From positions 35,004 to 99,003 of the IMG/VR virus record IMGVR_UViG_3300037521_000345: a stretch of DNA of 64,000 nucleotides; one strand, 5' to 3'. The notes beneath the pieces were generated by a model. That model saw only the letters and a list, made by a program, of their open reading frames with translations, was not told where the DNA came from and made no database searches. The stretch comes from a virus. Both the position numbers and the translations under genes were made by a program. Below are positions 5,343-35,291 of the stretch, piece after piece. Within the stretch, counting starts at the first letter, position 1. Every line of letters begins with the position of its first letter.

Positions 5343-5938
5343 TGAGTGGGTTAGAAGCTTTATGCGGTGATTTAATCATTCCACCTGAAATGGATAACTA
5401 TGAAGAAGATGTTGATAAATATCATGATCTCGCCAGTTTCAGGTATGCTGCTCTTGATATAATAAATGTAGTTGGAAAAATTGACTTTAAAGAACTATAT
5501 ATTGTTCAAATGGATACTATTAAAAAACAAACAATGTATGTACAGAGAGTATTTCTTATTGAAATGCTACAAAAGATAAGTGAAATTTATGATTGGGAAT
5601 TTCCTGATGAATGGAGTTTAGTTGATACTTCATATCAACAAGAACAATTATATAAGTTTATAGAATTTATTGAATTTGATAATTATAGATTTTTATCCTA
5701 CGTTTGGAGATTTTTATTAGATGATACTACTAAACTTATAAGATTCGATATTGATAATTTTTGTAAAAAAAATGTTATGAAGATAATTAAAGAGACAGAA
5801 GAACAGTTAGAAACTCATTTTCAAAGCAAGATGATTACTATTTTTCTTAGAACATATTACAAAGAGAAGTTCATTGAATGGTTTAGTTTAATGAGTAGGA
5901 GATATAAAGTAGAAATAATTTCTGAACTTTATGAATAA
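5342..5938 (+). CDS. hypothetical protein, 198 aa
   Basis: Not recognised. Start is the ATG overlapping the beta stop (TAATG), with AGGAGG seven bases upstream. The protein is acidic and predicted mostly helical, rich in aromatic residues, without Cys clusters, signal peptide or membrane segment. Being translationally coupled to the beta gene, it may be an accessory subunit or assembly factor of the first polymerase, as giant-phage polymerases have a non-bacterial extra subunit; nothing in its sequence proves this. Confidence 0.75.
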   Translation: MSGLEALCGDLIIPPEMDNYEEDVDKYHDLASFRYAALDIINVVGKIDFKELYIVQMDTIKKQTMYVQRVFLIEMLQKISEIYDWEFPDEWSLVDTSYQQEQLYKFIEFIEFDNYRFLSYVWRFLLDDTTKLIRFDIDNFCKKNVMKIIKETEEQLETHFQSKMITIFLRTYYKEKFIEWFSLMSRRYKVEIISELYE

Positions 5939-5950
5939 AAGGAGAAAAGA

Positions 5951-6208
5951 ATGGGAGAAGCAACAATTACAATTAAAAAGGGAGTGGTTGTCTTAAAAGC
6001 TCCAAAATCTGAATTAATCGAAGTATCTGAAACTCATGACGGTATAGCTTTTAACTTCAAACGTGGACTACAATTGTATCAAGTTGAACAATATATGCCA
6101 TCACATATTAAACAACTTATTAAGAATACAACTGATTCATTTGAAGGAAATAATATCATTATAGATTTAGATGATGCAAAGAAACCAATTATGGTTGACG
6201 CTACTTAA
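5951..6208 (+). CDS. hypothetical small protein, 85 aa
   Basis: Not recognised. AAAGGAG lies seven bases before the ATG. Two beta-rich halves are suggested by alternating hydrophobic residues ('ATITIKKGVVVLKAP', 'NNIIIDLDDAKKPIMV'). No cysteine, no membrane segment. It is the last gene of the unit that starts with the first beta' gene; a promoter-like element and the small-RNA array follow immediately. Confidence 0.7.
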   Translation: MGEATITIKKGVVVLKAPKSELIEVSETHDGIAFNFKRGLQLYQVEQYMPSHIKQLIKNTTDSFEGNNIIIDLDDAKKPIMVDAT

Positions 6209-6271: not shown

Positions 6272-6384
6272 AAGTTCTAAGAAGACTTTATGTGATTCCA
6301 GAGCTGTGTTGGTACAGCATCATACTATAAATGTGAAGTCAGGGTTCGAGTCCCTCATATTACATTTCTTACTTCTTAGAATTT
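6272..6384 (+). ncRNA. Y-RNA-like hairpin RNA 1, with tRNA-like domain
   Basis: The two ends pair over 13 bases (6272-6284 with 6372-6384, one G-U). Next come the conserved internal-loop strand ACTTT and an inner helix ATGTGAT/ATTACAT. Inside is a tRNA-like fold: D arm GCTG-loop-CAGC (6303-6318, loop containing TTGGTA), a five-pair anticodon-like arm (6320-6336, loop CTATAAA) and a T arm AGGG-TTCGAGT-CCCT (6341-6355). There is no normal acceptor stem or CCA. Known bacterial Y RNAs (YrlA) have just this design: a Ro-binding end stem plus a tRNA mimic. The Ro60-like gene lies 600 bases downstream. Confidence 0.72.
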
Positions 6385-6394
6385 TTATTTTTTA

Positions 6395-6500
6395 TCTGGA
6401 AAGACTTTATGTGATTTCCGAGCTGTGTTGGTACAGCATCTTACTATTAATAAGAAGCAAGGGTTCAACTCCCTGTAACTTACATCTGCTACTTTCCAGA
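6395..6500 (+). ncRNA. Y-RNA-like hairpin RNA 2, with tRNA-like domain
   Basis: Nine-base end helix TCTGGAAAG/CTTTCCAGA (6395-6403 with 6492-6500), then the conserved ACTTTATGTGAT strand and its partner ending TTACAT. The interior repeats the D-arm of RNA 1 exactly (GCTG...CAGC, 6422-6437), followed by a perfect five-pair anticodon-like arm TCTTA-CTATTAA-TAAGA (6439-6455) and a T arm AGGG-TTCAACT-CCCT (6460-6474). The end helix differs in sequence from RNA 1 yet still pairs, which is covariation in favour of a real RNA structure. Confidence 0.72.
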
Positions 6501-6511
6501 CCTATCAAAAT

Positions 6512-6577
6512 TTTCTAAGAAGACTTTGTGTAATTCCAGATCGATGCATCCAAATTACACCTATTACTTCTTAGAAA
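6512..6577 (+). ncRNA. Y-RNA-like hairpin RNA 3, minimal form
   Basis: End helix of 11 pairs (6512-6522 with 6567-6577), the conserved internal-loop strands ACTTT and CTATTA, then a perfect eight-pair inner helix GTGTAATT/AATTACAC. The loop keeps the family box CCAGA but has no tRNA-like insert, only a short palindromic GATGCATC. Relative to RNA 1 the inner helix has changed on both strands and still pairs. Confidence 0.68.
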
Positions 6578-6587
6578 CACAACTTTC

Positions 6588-6687
6588 AGATGAGAAGACT
6601 ATATGTGGTTTCAGAATACAGAAGCAAGTGTTTAATACACACTTAGTCCTTGTAATACCTTTGTCCTACATAAACTACTTCTCATCT
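6588..6687 (+). ncRNA. Y-RNA-like hairpin RNA 4
   Basis: Ten-pair end helix AGATGAGAAG/CTTCTCATCT (6588-6597 with 6678-6687). The conserved strand is ACTATATGTGG followed by TTTCAGA; the 3' partner is CCTACATA. The distal insert is different from RNAs 1 and 2: it contains a hairpin AAGTGT-TTAATAC-ACACTT (6626-6644) and is not tRNA-like. It is the most diverged member with a long insert. Confidence 0.62.
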
Positions 6688-6694
6688 CATTTTT

Positions 6695-6759
6695 CCTGAA
6701 AGACTTTTTGTAATTTCAGATTTATTGGAAAATCATCAATTACAATTACTACTTTCAGG
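6695..6759 (+). ncRNA. Y-RNA-like hairpin RNA 5, minimal form
   Basis: Eight-pair end helix CCTGAAAG/CTTTCAGG, conserved ACTTT strand and TTACTA partner, perfect inner helix TTGTAATT/AATTACAA, then TCAGA and a small hairpin GATTT-ATTGGA-AAATC. Same architecture as RNA 3 with different paired sequences. Confidence 0.67.
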
Positions 6760-6767
6760 TTTTACTT

Positions 6768-6834
6768 TGTGGGGTCACTCAGTATAGAAAAAAACCTATT
6801 CGGGGTTCTAAACCTATACTAATAGTACCCCACA
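6768..6834 (+). ncRNA. nested hairpin unrelated to the flanking family
   Basis: Eight-pair outer helix TGTGGGGT/ACCCCACA, an inner helix AGTATAG/CTATACT, and a possible AACC/GGTT apical pairing. It lacks the ACTTT...TTTCAGA box shared by its neighbours, so it is either a different RNA or a structural spacer. The GC-rich outer helix is conspicuous in this AT-rich region. It has no following T-run, so it is not an ordinary terminator. Confidence 0.45.
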
Positions 6835-6842
6835 TCTTTTCT

Positions 6843-6901
6843 AAATGGACTTAATGTGATTTCAGACCTGCATAGTGTTAAGATTACATTTACTTCCATT
6901 T
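6843..6901 (+). ncRNA. Y-RNA-like hairpin RNA 6, minimal form
   Basis: End helix AAATGGA/TCCATTT, then CTTAATGTGAT with TTTCAGA on the 5' side and ATTACATTTACT on the 3' side. It is the shortest and weakest member by end-helix length but matches the family consensus over the inner helix. It is followed by an uncoding leader of about 95 bases (6902-6998) holding a TATAAT-like hexamer at 6949 and the ribosome binding site of the Ro60-like gene. Confidence 0.6.
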
Positions 6902-6998
6902 TTTTGAAAGGAAATTGATGAAAGATTCTTTTATTCTAAAACATTGGTTATAATTGCTTTACGTCGTCAGAAACATTTAAAGGGAAAGGAGATCTAAA

Positions 6999-8510
6999 GT
7001 GCCAGGAGAGTTAGGATTAATTGATTCAGGTATATTGCAGTTTGCTCCAAAGGGAGCTTATTATGAAGGAAAAGATGAGCAATATAATGCCATCAATAGC
7101 ATGTGGGAAAGTCTATTTAAATATGATAGAACTTTATTTTCTTTGCTAATGTTGTTAAATGGAACAGGTTTTGCAAAGGGATCAATGTCTCACATCTTAT
7201 TATCGAATCCATTAGAGGAATCCAAACTTCCAGTATTAGATAACCTACCTTCCCATTTTGAGAAGGATATTATAAACTATGCTCTTTATAAGGAGAGAAC
7301 TCCAAGAGCATTGAAAAATTTATTAATGTTAACAGGAGCAGAAGGGCACAGTAAAGTTAATAATTCTAGAACAAGAAAAATGATTTTAGAATTTATATTC
7401 AATCGAGATAATAATAATCTTGATAATCTTGCTGTGAATTATAAAGGCAAACTTCAAACGCTGATTACACATGCTCTTGGAAAACAAGATCTAGCAAAAA
7501 TTCTTGGTGGTGACAAAAAATCATTTGAAAAATTCATTGGAAAATATAATAGACATTCTTTTCCTGTAGTTCTTCATATATTCAATATGGATATTCCAAC
7601 TGTGGGAGCTTACTTTCCAATGATTGAAAAATATTATAAACTTCGAAACGCAGCACAAGAGAAAAATATTACAGAATTTAAAAAATTAATGAAGGGCATG
7701 CCAGAAAGAACAGTCATGGGTATGAGGAATTTATATAAAGTTAACATTCCTATATCTGAATTAAAAGATGAAACTACCAAATCACAAAAGGATAGAATTC
7801 AAGGACAGGCAGCAGCTAAAAGAGCTGGAACAAAGATAGATATTGATTATAAAAAACAAGATATCTATGACTTATTTAAATTTCTATATTTTAAAATCAA
7901 AAACAATGATGGTGAGGATTTTAATAAAATATTATATGCCATTGATCACGTTGCAGGCAAACTTCCTAAAATAGATATTGGAGAATGTGTAGTAGTTATG
8001 GATGCTTCACATTCAATGATGGGAAGTGATGAAAGACCAATGCATCCATTTCTAACTGGACTATCTATTACTGCAACTCTCAAAAATATAAGAGAGTATA
8101 TATATGTTGGAGGAGAAACAGCTAAAATGGAAGGTAATGATTTTCCAGAAATTGTAGTTCCTTGCAATAGTACAGATTTATGGAGAGGATTGATCAAAGC
8201 TGTTAAAACAGGTGTTGAAAATATAGTTATCATTTCAGATGGTTATGAAAACACCATCAAAGGAATGTTCAAACACGTATATGATCACTTAAAAAAGAAT
8301 GGATATAAGTTCAAAGTAACTCATATCAATCCTGTATTTTCAGCTTCATCTGTTAATGGTTCAACAAGAAAATTAGCAGATGATATTAAATCTATGCCAG
8401 TAGGAAACTATAAGTATTTAGAAACAGAAGTTATTTTTTCTAGACTTGTAGAGGATAAGGAAATGGTTAAAAAAATATTAATCTCAAAATATAGAAATTT
8501 ACTTCAATAA
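6999..8510 (+). CDS. TROVE/vWA-domain protein, Ro60-like RNA-binding protein
   Basis: 503 residues, GTG start chosen because AAAGGAG lies seven bases upstream. The first roughly 300 residues look like a helical-repeat TROVE domain ('RKMILEFIFNRDNNNLDNLA' around 125-145). The C-terminal third is a von Willebrand A domain with the MIDAS motif DASHS near residue 335 and a later 'IIISDGYEN'-type strand. Ro60 proteins bind Y RNAs and misfolded RNAs and take part in RNA quality control; some mycobacteriophages are known to carry them. The adjacent upstream array of hairpin RNAs supports the call. TROVE assignment is by pattern, not a search; a different helical-repeat/vWA protein is the alternative. 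Confidence 0.72.
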   Translation: MPGELGLIDSGILQFAPKGAYYEGKDEQYNAINSMWESLFKYDRTLFSLLMLLNGTGFAKGSMSHILLSNPLEESKLPVLDNLPSHFEKDIINYALYKERTPRALKNLLMLTGAEGHSKVNNSRTRKMILEFIFNRDNNNLDNLAVNYKGKLQTLITHALGKQDLAKILGGDKKSFEKFIGKYNRHSFPVVLHIFNMDIPTVGAYFPMIEKYYKLRNAAQEKNITEFKKLMKGMPERTVMGMRNLYKVNIPISELKDETTKSQKDRIQGQAAAKRAGTKIDIDYKKQDIYDLFKFLYFKIKNNDGEDFNKILYAIDHVAGKLPKIDIGECVVVMDASHSMMGSDERPMHPFLTGLSITATLKNIREYIYVGGETAKMEGNDFPEIVVPCNSTDLWRGLIKAVKTGVENIVIISDGYENTIKGMFKHVYDHLKKNGYKFKVTHINPVFSASSVNGSTRKLADDIKSMPVGNYKYLETEVIFSRLVEDKEMVKKILISKYRNLLQ

Positions 8511-8527: not shown

Positions 8528-9499
8528 ATGTCAATATTGAAAACATTAGGATTTACAAATCTTAATGCTGGAACCGTTCAAGTTGTGGATGAAATGACAG
8601 TAGTGCCCTTAATTAGTGAAGATTTAGGACAAGTTGCTGAACCATTTTCATTGAAATTCAGACGAACAAACACTTATGGTTCCATGATTTATGAGAATTT
8701 AGATAAGGAATCTCCTGCGATCATTCCCAATAATATTATGGTGAGAGGATTGAGTGCACAGGATCACGCAATGGCAGGATCAGGAGTGGTTAAAGCTGAA
8801 AAATCAAAAACATTCAATAATGCTTGCTGTATTGAATCAAGTCAAGGTGGATATCTAGGTGAAGAAAATAATGAATATGATATCTTGCCTGTTCAGCTTC
8901 GTAAGAAACTTATTCCATTAGATATAAGAAATAAAAAAAGTTATGATAAATTATGGCCAGAAATTACAGCATGGTTGAAAGGTACTATTGATGTATCTCC
9001 TCGTTTCTCAAGTGCCCATCTAAGATATTTCTATGATGATCCTGAAATAAAGAAATCTCTTGAAACATTCTCCGCTGAATTTGAACCTGTATTAAATCAA
9101 ATCGGTGCTATTATATTATTTACAGATAACATTGTTGGTATAGAAGTTATGCCAACTCTTTCACATTGGTATTATTACTGGAAATTATTAATTCGTGGAT
9201 GTTATGGAGCTGAATTATTAAGACGTAAAAAATTAAATATAATTAAACCAGCTAAATTGAAACTTCCAAAACTTCCAAAAGATATTGATCAGATATCTTT
9301 AGTTGGCGATACTTATACAGATGGTATTCGTCAAAACATTATTAAAAAATTAGACACTATTAATTTGAAAACAACTTCAACTATTATAGAAAAAGTTGAA
9401 GATATTAATATTATATTATTAAACAGTGAATCAGGTGGTAGCGGTGGAGATTTGATTACTCAAAAAGATAAACCAATATATCTTTCTATAGTGATGTAA
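8528..9499 (+). CDS. Ro60-linked companion protein, 323 aa (possibly ARPP-1/DUF6569-like)
   Basis: Follows the Ro60-like gene by 17 bases with AGGGAGGA before the ATG, so cotranslated. Residues about 60-115 have the pattern '...QDHAMAGSGVVKAEKS...CCIESSQGGYL', similar to what I recall of ARPP-1-type domains, which occur in prokaryotic conflict and stress operons; this resemblance is weak. A Gly/Ser-rich tail (SGGSGG) precedes the C-terminus. No membrane segment. The role is unknown; context suggests it acts with the Ro60-like RNP. Confidence 0.6.
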   Translation: MSILKTLGFTNLNAGTVQVVDEMTVVPLISEDLGQVAEPFSLKFRRTNTYGSMIYENLDKESPAIIPNNIMVRGLSAQDHAMAGSGVVKAEKSKTFNNACCIESSQGGYLGEENNEYDILPVQLRKKLIPLDIRNKKSYDKLWPEITAWLKGTIDVSPRFSSAHLRYFYDDPEIKKSLETFSAEFEPVLNQIGAIILFTDNIVGIEVMPTLSHWYYYWKLLIRGCYGAELLRRKKLNIIKPAKLKLPKLPKDIDQISLVGDTYTDGIRQNIIKKLDTINLKTTSTIIEKVEDINIILLNSESGGSGGDLITQKDKPIYLSIVM

Positions 9500-11908: not shown

Positions 11909-13129
11909 ATGCCAAGTCAAAATACCCCAGTACAAGAACAAAAATATTATGAAAAACTAAATATTTCGGTCCTCTCTATTAGTCGAATTAAAGAATTACT
12001 TAAAGATGATATTAAATCAACTCTGATTTGTTGGCAACAAGGAAGAGATGTTGATAGACAATGCTATCGAATTATTGGACCAGCAGGTGTTGGAAAGACT
12101 CAAATATGCTATCAAATAGTTGAAGAACTATCAGAAGAAGTGGGTATTCCATTTCAACTTATTATGATAAAAGCTCCCGTTCTATCAAGGGATGATTTTA
12201 TAATTCCATTTCCTGTTATTAATAATGGAAATGAAAAATTCAAAATGTTGTATTCAGACTTCGTTCCAGAAGGTGATGATACATATGGTTTGTTTGTCAT
12301 AGATGAGTGTGGTCGTGGCGATCATGCATTACAACAATTATTATGGCAAGTTCAAAATGAATATTCAATTCATAGATATGACTTTCCAAAACATTGGTTT
12401 GTTATATCAATTGATAATCCAGATGACTCTGAATATTCAATGGATATTATTGAGGATGCTGCAGGTCTTCGTCGAAATCTTCACGTTTATACAGAAGTAA
12501 GTGCTAAAGATTTTCTTGACTATGCTATTAAAAAAGATTTTCATCCATTTGTCATTGAGTATATTCAGACACATCCAGAAAGAGTTTATGATTGGCAATC
12601 CCAAAAGGTTGGTGCAGTTTATGCTAATCCTGCAAGTTGGGAAAAGATTTCAGATCATCTCTGGAAAATGGAAATAGCACATGGAAAAATAGATTTTGAT
12701 AAGTTTGAACCTAAAGCTTCTGGTTTAATTAACACTAATCAAACTCGATTATTTTTAGAATTTGCAAGAGATAAACGAGATATTAATCCAAAAGATATTT
12801 TCTATAATTTTAATAAAGTAGAAAAACAGATAAAGAATCTTATTAAAAATAACGATAATTCTAAACTTGGTGAACTAATGACAAGTTTTGGAACCTTTAT
12901 GGTTACCACAATGCCTTCCTATCAAAGTGATAATCTAAAAAATGTTATTGAATTTCTATTATTAATGCCTGTTGATACAGCAGCATTGTTTATGTCTCAA
13001 ATAGATCAATATGAAAGATCATCAAAATCATTTCAATACATGACAAAACTCCACGTAATATTGACTCAAAAATCACATAAATACAAAAGAGAATTCTATG
13101 ATCCACTGGTTGGACTTGGACTAGAATAA
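11909..13129 (+). CDS. MoxR-type AAA+ ATPase
   Basis: 406 residues. Walker A GPAGVGKT at 57-64, Walker B 'LFVIDECGR' near 130, and the sensor/arginine region with 'ISIDNPDD' and 'AGLRRNLHVYTEVS' resemble MoxR/RavA-type ATPases. MoxR ATPases act as chaperones for vWA-domain partners, and such a partner is encoded 21 bases downstream, so the two probably form one complex. No protease or membrane domain is seen. The C-terminal half is helical and not recognisable. Confidence 0.82.
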   Translation: MPSQNTPVQEQKYYEKLNISVLSISRIKELLKDDIKSTLICWQQGRDVDRQCYRIIGPAGVGKTQICYQIVEELSEEVGIPFQLIMIKAPVLSRDDFIIPFPVINNGNEKFKMLYSDFVPEGDDTYGLFVIDECGRGDHALQQLLWQVQNEYSIHRYDFPKHWFVISIDNPDDSEYSMDIIEDAAGLRRNLHVYTEVSAKDFLDYAIKKDFHPFVIEYIQTHPERVYDWQSQKVGAVYANPASWEKISDHLWKMEIAHGKIDFDKFEPKASGLINTNQTRLFLEFARDKRDINPKDIFYNFNKVEKQIKNLIKNNDNSKLGELMTSFGTFMVTTMPSYQSDNLKNVIEFLLLMPVDTAALFMSQIDQYERSSKSFQYMTKLHVILTQKSHKYKREFYDPLVGLGLE

Positions 13130-13150
13130 AACTAATATAAAGGAGTCAGT

Positions 13151-14431
13151 ATGCCAGGTGAACAAACACACCAACGATTTAAAGAGTTATTTGCAAAATT
13201 TGTTCTCAAGTATAATTACTGGGGGTATTTGTTTTCCAGAATAAGAAGAAAACCATCTGAAAATATTCCATCCATTATGGGAGTAGCTCCTGAAATGGAT
13301 GGAACTATAACTTTATGGTATCATCCTAAGTTAGTTGATGGAACAGATGAAAAGAATCTCACAAAAATTCTTGAGCACGAAGGTATGCATTTATTAAATA
13401 AACATATAGCAAGATTAATAAGAATTATTGCAGATGAAACAGATATAACTAAATTACATATTAAAATAGATTTATGGAATCTAGCAGCTGATGCTGCCTC
13501 TAATCACCAAGCACAATTTGAAGATGATCTTATTGTAGATGGAGAACCTTGGCCACTTATATTTCCAGCAAGTATAGGACTTCCAGAAAATAAAACTGCT
13601 GAATTTTACTATTATGAGTTATTAAAAAAGAATAAAGACGACATGGAAAAATTTGCAAAGGAAATGAAAAAGATATTTAAAATATTAGATAGTCATTCAG
13701 AATGGTCAAAAGGTTTATCAAAAGCTGGTGATCCAAGCACTTTATCAAGAAAGATAGATAGTTTTATTACAGATATTATAAGAGAATCTGTTAAAAGTTT
13801 TTCAAGAGATAAAGGAAATTTGCCAGCACATATACGTGAGTTAGTTGAGCAAGCATTAGGACCTCCAAAGGTTCCATATTATGCTCTTATTAAAAAACTT
13901 ATTAAAGGAAGCAGATTATCTAAATTCAAAAGGTCACATACAAAAGTTAATCGAAAGAGAGGTTATGTATTTGTAATTGGAACAAAGGATGGTATACCAG
14001 AAATCTCACCTTTTCCAGGAAGAACTAGAGACTTTACATTCAAAATAGGTATCGTGATTGATACATCAGGAAGTATGACAATAGAATGGATTGCAGAAGG
14101 TCTCTCTGGAGTCAAAAATATATTAGAAAAAGATAGACACTGTCATGTTACAGTGATGCAAGTTGATACAGTAGTTGAAAGTGAGTATCAACCCAAGAAA
14201 ATTAGAGATATTAGATTTGAAGCAAAAGGAAGAGGTGGAACAGAATTATATCCTGGTTTGAAAAGATGTAGAGAATTAGAAGTTGATGTCTGCCTAGTAT
14301 TTACAGATGGACATTGTGAAAATATAAATACAATACCTCGAAAGTTATTACCAAAAAAAATCATTTGGGTTATAACTCCAAGTGGAAGTCCAGATAAAAT
14401 TAATAAAACTGGATATGTAATAAGAATTTAA
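13151..14431 (+). CDS. vWA-domain protein with N-terminal metallopeptidase-like domain (DUF2201-like)
   Basis: 426 residues. N-terminal domain has H76-E-G-M-H80, a HExxH zinc-peptidase motif, followed by helices, as in the putative metallopeptidase domain that is often fused to VWA-like domains. The C-terminal domain has the MIDAS motif 'DTSGSM' near residue 303 and 'VFTDGH' further on. Together with the MoxR ATPase it makes the classic MoxR-vWA pair. Whether the peptidase is active cannot be told. A second vWA protein, the Ro60-like one, is encoded 5 kb upstream, so the ATPase might serve both. Confidence 0.8.
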   Translation: MPGEQTHQRFKELFAKFVLKYNYWGYLFSRIRRKPSENIPSIMGVAPEMDGTITLWYHPKLVDGTDEKNLTKILEHEGMHLLNKHIARLIRIIADETDITKLHIKIDLWNLAADAASNHQAQFEDDLIVDGEPWPLIFPASIGLPENKTAEFYYYELLKKNKDDMEKFAKEMKKIFKILDSHSEWSKGLSKAGDPSTLSRKIDSFITDIIRESVKSFSRDKGNLPAHIRELVEQALGPPKVPYYALIKKLIKGSRLSKFKRSHTKVNRKRGYVFVIGTKDGIPEISPFPGRTRDFTFKIGIVIDTSGSMTIEWIAEGLSGVKNILEKDRHCHVTVMQVDTVVESEYQPKKIRDIRFEAKGRGGTELYPGLKRCRELEVDVCLVFTDGHCENINTIPRKLLPKKIIWVITPSGSPDKINKTGYVIRI

Positions 14432-34388: not shown

Positions 34389-35291
34389 TTGAACTTCTTT
34401 AATACTATAACAATAATTGGAACAGGAACATTAGGAGGACATCTTTGTAAACATCTTGCTGAAAGTTCAAAAGTATGTAAACTAATTTTAATTGATAAAG
34501 ATATTGTTGACACTAAAGATACAGAAGTTGGTATCTTTCAACCAGTGGATATTCATGAACCAAAAGTTCATGCACTATACCATAAATTTAAAAATTATAA
34601 TACAGAAATTGAACCAATGGTAGAATTTTATATAGATGGTATTACAAATTTACCAATATCAGATCTTACAATTGATTGTAGAAATATATTTGGAAAAAGA
34701 GATTTAAATATTGATATGAAAATGTTTATATCAGAAAGATTTCTAATATTAGATTTTGGAAAAAAGTATGAAAATGAAAATCAACGTAAAGGCGAATATT
34801 CTATTCAACTATCAGAACATGAAATAAGTAGAGCTGCATACTATGCTACAACTTTAATATGTAGTGATATATTGAAAGAACTATTAAAAAGTCAATCAAT
34901 AAAATATATTGATATTGATATTATACAAACAATAATGTTAAAAAGTATTAAAGAATCAAAACAAAAATCCAACATTATTTATGATTTAGATAAGGATACT
35001 AAAAGGTTGAGAAGAATTGATGAAGTTATACAACCTATATTAAAAAAGAATAAAACAACTTCTCTTAAAATAGCAGTCAAAGAAAGAAATTCAATTGTTA
35101 GAGAAGTTTTTAATATGCCAAAGTTTGCAGAAACGACATATAAAATAATTCCACAAGATAGTTTAAAACAACCAGAAGATGTAATTGATATTTTAAAAAA
35201 AGCAATTGAAGGTAAAAGTGAAACTTTAAAATTTCTACCAGTTCTTATAGATGATAAAATTCATATTTTAGAAGATACAGGAGGAGCATAA
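34389..35291 (+). CDS. second E1/ThiF-like Rossmann protein, 300 aa
   Basis: TTG start, with GAAAGGA upstream; no ATG lies near. 'ITIIGTGTLGGHLCKHL' (7-23) and 'LILIDKDIVDTKDTEVG' (32-48) are the glycine loop and Asp motif of the ThiF/E1 Rossmann fold, but the R-Q pair and an obvious catalytic cysteine are absent. It is therefore probably a partner or pseudo-E1, as in heterodimeric E1 enzymes. Overlaps the next gene (TAATG). Confidence 0.7.
   Translation: MNFFNTITIIGTGTLGGHLCKHLAESSKVCKLILIDKDIVDTKDTEVGIFQPVDIHEPKVHALYHKFKNYNTEIEPMVEFYIDGITNLPISDLTIDCRNIFGKRDLNIDMKMFISERFLILDFGKKYENENQRKGEYSIQLSEHEISRAAYYATTLICSDILKELLKSQSIKYIDIDIIQTIMLKSIKESKQKSNIIYDLDKDTKRLRRIDEVIQPILKKNKTTSLKIAVKERNSIVREVFNMPKFAETTYKIIPQDSLKQPEDVIDILKKAIEGKSETLKFLPVLIDDKIHILEDTGGA

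Follow-up and report, generated by a model that had tools for sequence, protein, structure and literature searches.

Probable Y RNAs with transfer RNA-like arms beside a predicted Ro60-like gene in a virus of large-phage type, with circularly permuted forms in its relatives

Knowledge of bacterial Y RNAs comes from a handful of studied systems. A 2014 survey of these RNAs reportedly also counted phage examples. The stem of YrlA binds Rsr; for its transfer RNA (tRNA)-like domain, binding of PNPase and a role as DusA and TruB substrate have been described (PMC8394870). Phage Ro60 proteins are known as well, from the structure of that of Thermus phage phiLo (9l5y) and as TROVE proteins of jumbo phages (PMC7824862), and small RNAs that are transcribed at high levels close to an Rsr-like gene of Listeria phage CKA15 are putative phage Y RNAs (PMC12282133, which cites the 2014 survey for mycobacteriophages). 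Here, we analyze a window of 64,000 nucleotides (positions 35,004 to 99,003 of IMG/VR record IMGVR_UViG_3300037521_000345), a segment of the 99-kb virus record G000, whose gene content is of the large-phage type. The window holds an array of hairpin RNAs, two of which (RNAs 1 and 2) carry tRNA-like arms, and we read these two as Y RNAs of a phage-encoded Ro60 particle, with a probability of roughly 0.78. The locus shows a Ro60-like protein that sequence profiles miss, and that is kept together with Y RNAs and the protein ARPP-1 across large phages.

The array lies in about 790 bases between two open reading frames (5951-6208 and 6999-8510), a stretch with no open reading frame of at least 80 amino acids. 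It contains six plus-strand hairpins of common design and one of a different design, and is followed by two genes:

6275-6382, plus strand: Y RNA 1, outer stem 6276-6284/6372-6380 and inner helix 6290-6296/6359-6365, holding tRNA-like arms
6394-6502, plus strand: Y RNA 2, outer stem 6395-6403/6492-6500 and inner helix 6409-6414/6480-6485, holding tRNA-like arms
6513-6577, plus strand: Y RNA 3, the same two-part stem with a short loop and without the tRNA-like domain (z = -5.3)
6588-6692, plus strand: Y RNA 4, the same stem with a decayed T-arm-like hairpin inside (AAGTG-TTTAATA-CACAC)
6695-6761, plus strand: Y RNA 5, the same stem with a short loop (z = -4.5)
6766-6836, plus strand: additional hairpin that lacks the Y-stem motif and is related to 5764-5842 of relative L004 (z = -4.9)
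6842-6908, plus strand: Y RNA 6, the same stem with a short loop (z = -3.8)
6999-8510, plus strand: Ro60/TROVE-like protein of 503 amino acids with a DxSxS (MIDAS-type) vWA motif, the presumed Y RNA partner
8528-9499, plus strand: ARPP-1 (PF20208) protein, directly 3' of the Ro60-like gene

The six window RNAs have in common a two-part stem that runs, in order, through an outer stem, a RACUU internal loop, an inner helix and UUCAG. Covariation in this stem was tested on 11 RNAs, i.e. the six of the window and five of L004, whose Ro60-like protein is 68% identical to that of the window. We find that 94.9% of the cells pair and that 11 of 17 pairs have changed on both sides. The observed covariation score is reached by 0 of 500 shuffles, and the signal is lost when the partners are slid. 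The motif is also present in 16 RNAs of L002, L006, L008, L009, and L010, and further copies are seen in L027-L033, using a home-made heuristic scan that gives some matches on the reverse strand. All relatives are metagenomic; a DNA-level similarity search of a phage collection gave no match, and a scan of cellular genomes with the pair alignment found no relatives.

The presumed partner of these RNAs was not identified by sequence in Pfam, PHROGs, NCBIfam, or the PDB sequences. An AlphaFold2 model, built with six relatives (23-68% identity), has a TROVE protein as its top Foldseek match (9kop; E = 1.4e-5, Z = 14.2); next in the VIA-align ranking come the Ro60 of Thermus phage phiLo (Z = 13.2) and then Deinococcus Rsr and vertebrate (Xenopus-type) Ro60. 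The best PDB matches are TROVE/Ro60 chains, and they span 376-391 residues, covering the helical-repeat ring and the vWA fold. The MIDAS-type DxSxS residues of the vWA domain (D335, S337, and S339) are invariant in seven relatives. The protein is thus Ro60-like by predicted fold and not a TROVE member by sequence, and the model suggests a very divergent Ro60.

The tRNA-like arms of RNAs 1 and 2 sit inside the Y stem. In RNA 1, the D arm (6303-6318) reads GCTG-TGTTGGTA-CAGC, the anticodon-like arm (6320-6336) TCATA-CTATAAA-TGTGA, and the T arm (6341-6355) AGGG-TTCGAGT-CCCT; the corresponding arms of RNA 2 are found at 6422-6437, at 6439-6455 (TCTTA-CTATTAA-TAAGA), and at 6460-6474 (AGGG-TTCAACT-CCCT). 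The first-pass annotation had placed these arms in 6303-6474, with the same 21 bases in both D-arm regions and with neither a seven-pair acceptor nor CCA. All of this holds: the shared stretch is the 21-mer GAGCTGTGTTGGTACAGCATC, the inner Y helix takes the place of the acceptor, and ARAGORN calls no tRNA in either RNA, linear or rotated. The arms do lie within that interval, but the true units are the two longer hairpins given above. RNAs 1 and 2 are the only two matches to the Rfam tRNA model in the 99-kb record, at 29.0 and 29.9 bits against a gathering score of 29 (E over the record of 2.2e-5 and 1.2e-5, respectively). Being paralogous (86% over 74 nucleotides), they are not independent of each other.

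Evidence for the arms also comes from ten RNAs of the window and its relatives, in which 97.5% of the cells of the D, anticodon, and T arms pair and 8 of 12 pairs have changed on both sides. The covariation score is 0.711 vs 0.178 in shuffles, and none of 500 shuffles reaches it. Folded alone, RNA 2 adopts the proposed arms, with pair probabilities of about 0.7-0.8 for the anticodon-like arm and the inner helix. Both window RNAs have the D-loop GG and U20, which, with the T loop, are candidate sites of the kind that DusA and TruB use on YrlA (PMC8394870).

RNAs 1 and 2 are very probably YrlA-like Y RNAs, because the stem they share covaries and the model of the adjoining gene product matches Ro60 best. 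The first-pass annotation had drawn the parallel with YrlA from the tRNA mimicry; this was right in kind, and extends to the two-part outer stem, the tRNA-like distal module, and the adjoining Ro60-like gene. The annotation had overlooked that gene as the presumed partner, and likewise the permuted layouts of relatives described below. Some results weigh against the assignment to a Ro60 particle: no TROVE sequence profile matches the 503-residue protein in Pfam, protein, or genome searches, its model is only moderate (pLDDT 76, pTM 0.61), and RNA 1 folded alone disfavors its anticodon-like arm and inner helix (pair probability about 0.03), while it still forms the outer stem, D arm, and T arm.

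By analogy with YrlA, the Ro60 ring would bind the common Y stem, and the tRNA-like end would engage host or phage enzymes that recognize the tRNA elbow. Much as YrlA links Rsr to PNPase, these RNAs would tether Ro60 to a partner, e.g. a nuclease or an enzyme of tRNA repair. RNAs 3, 5, and 6, which are short and have no tRNA end, could still bind Ro60. During infection, the particle would probably benefit the phage by controlling RNA decay or the repair of tRNAs.

The tRNA-like RNAs could instead be decoys that mimic anticodon arms and so bind and tie up the anticodon nucleases with which the host counters the phage, as the first-pass annotation had also proposed. Consistent with this, the anticodon-like arm is maintained by compensatory change in all four counted pairs, U33 is found in the loops, and competitive inhibition has been proposed for YrlA. 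The same work reports, however, that Salmonella YrlA is not cleaved as an anticodon-nuclease substrate (PMC7790460). Furthermore, the anticodon triplets of homologs are diverse (AUA, AUU, UGA, UAU, UUU, UGG, and others), which argues against bait for one nuclease, and the arm has been lost in one RNA of L004 (5240-5341). The T loop, by comparison, matches TTCRANY in 33 of 33 tRNA-like RNAs examined, and its constancy together with the varied triplets speaks more for recognition of the elbow than for bait aimed at one anticodon nuclease. A decoy function alone also leaves the Ro60 stem and the adjoining Ro60 gene unexplained, and we consider it unlikely.

Analyses of the relatives reveal several layouts of Y stem and tRNA body. 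In one, similar to YrlA, the tRNA is closed by the Y stem at its acceptor end (e.g. L002, L006, L008, L027, L031, and L032), and copies that retain an acceptor stem occur in L027, L029, and L031. In another, the D, anticodon, and T arms lack an acceptor, as in the window, L004, L027, and L028; for example, the acceptor-less copy at 5756-5815 of L028 scores 52.3 bits. This copy and those that retain an acceptor stem are intermediates that support the Y RNA reading. A third layout is circularly permuted: the T arm and the 3' half of the acceptor, usually with N-CCA, precede a short linker, the 5' half of the acceptor, and the D arm, while the anticodon arm is on either side or absent. This form is found in six records (L006, L008, L009, L028, L032, and L033), and the window itself is without it. 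The permuted Y RNAs, most of which have N-CCA inside a closed acceptor hairpin, are the following:

L009: 3805-4819
L006: 4239-4357
L008: 4079-4232 and 4414-4550
L028: 5986-6114
L032: 11189-11482
L033: 9368-9519

ARAGORN calls a tRNA in 12 permuted RNAs of the six records only once the halves are rejoined, and in none of the controls, which were 195 shuffles for the final run and, for the first, 96 shuffles and 40 background stretches. The permuted set was picked by eye before testing, and identical ARAGORN variants were applied to every copy. Rotating whole hairpins with the stem kept yields no tRNA, a result probably explained by the position of the long stem in the variable region; with the stem excised, a tRNA is called. 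Free-energy folds of L009 and L028 copies also place the permuted arms inside the Y stem.

In a fourth layout, seen in L010, an apparent Y hairpin lies within tRNA-like genes that have ordinary outer ends:

L010, 4661-4796: hairpin inserted in the variable loop, which the fold supports only partly
L010, 4921-5063: hairpin inserted in the D loop, which the fold supports clearly; ends with an encoded CCA

L029 and L031 show a D-anticodon-T arrangement and then a closed acceptor-like hairpin with CCA, which is a possible further permutation. The folds of L029 (5894-6024) and L031 (5197-5331) show this hairpin, and ARAGORN calls no tRNA in either. The window RNAs may derive from this form. In a separate element of L008 (4563-4684), the acceptor and T arm are tRNA-like and flank a large insert of another kind where the anticodon region would be expected.

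That one tRNA body recurs in differing circular permutations suggests that selection keeps its three-dimensional shape and not its ends, a pattern that opens the purpose of tRNA mimicry in Y RNAs to testing. A more far-reaching account is that, in this phage Ro60 family, the Ro60-binding stem was grafted onto tRNA bodies at different points. The permuted copies would then be real precursors: cleavage at the acceptor loop and rejoining at the site of the Ro60 stem would yield working phage tRNAs, and no permuted tRNA genes would have been known before these except in algae and archaea. The window RNAs would be derivatives that have lost the acceptor and serve in the Ro60 role only. We hold this to be a doubtful, long-shot account.

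Repeats that act only in DNA or mRNA, whether for processing or to attenuate the gene downstream, the likeness to Ro60 being a coincidence, would fit six hairpins in one untranslated stretch ahead of a gene and the interspersed hairpins without the Y motif; yet the adjoining protein is Ro60-like by fold, the hairpins include tRNA-like domains, and the combination recurs in relatives, which makes this very improbable. Least probable of all are functionless remnants of phage tRNAs captured between repeats, a reading that accords with the low tRNA scores, the absent acceptor, and the paralogous pair, and that is disfavored by the compensatory changes in three arms and the stem across relatives and by the conserved letters of the T loop.

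Returning to the Ro60 particle, ARPP-1 is a likely further component. Its gene is present in 8 of 8 records searched with the family model. In all loci examined it directly follows the Ro60-like gene, and most often the Y stem is also present upstream; the order of Y RNAs, Ro60-like gene, and ARPP-1 is kept in relatives at 23-68% protein identity. A Ro60-like open reading frame is also just upstream in 15 of 15 further ARPP-1 loci, where it was recognized by length and by the DxSxS and [ST]DGY motifs only. A model of ARPP-1 (pLDDT 72) has no PDB match at E <= 0.001, i.e. no solved structure resembles it.

Other elements accompany these loci. GC-rich hairpins without the Y motif are found among the Y RNAs at 6766-6836 of the window, at 5525-5599 and 5764-5842 of L004, and at 5336-5400 of L031, and the loop sequence ATTCGGGG[TA]TC is common to the window copy and the second of L004. 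Farther downstream (11909-14431), the window encodes an ATPase and then a metallopeptidase-vWA protein (DUF2201), which resemble the MoxR-vWA pair of jumbo phages (PMC7824862). The RNA ligase RtcB was considered as a constant partner and rejected, its gene being in only 3 of 20 records searched (some of them fragments). These three are the records of L009 (G005), L029 (G009), and L016 (G013), and that of L016 also has a transfer-messenger RNA gene.

Compared with known systems, the window resembles YrlA of S. Typhimurium (PDB 6CU1; PMC8394870) in its large terminal stem, its distal domain with D and T arms, and its position beside a predicted Ro60 homolog. Unlike YrlA, the window RNAs have the inner Y helix where a seven-pair acceptor would be and keep the anticodon-like arm, and the phage locus has an array of six RNAs, a RACUU/UUCAG stem motif, and, in relatives, permuted tRNA domains. 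With the known phage Ro60 systems it shares a phage-encoded Ro60 fold, here a predicted one; it differs in a protein that Pfam does not match, in RNAs defined by covariation, and in having ARPP-1 as the neighbor. Permuted tRNA genes were known as of 2014 from six algae and one archaeon (PMC3978253), and we found no case in bacteria or phages in the open-license literature searched, so that a permuted tRNA inside a Y RNA seems unreported for either. As in the algal and Thermofilum genes (PMC3978253), the 3' half in the phage relatives comes before the 5' half and the two are joined across the acceptor ends. By contrast, their carriers are phages, and their outer ends lie in a Ro60-type stem and not in a bulge-helix-bulge splice site. 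The RNAs of the window are very probably a variant of a known Y RNA type, and the permuted forms in its relatives are the surprising part.
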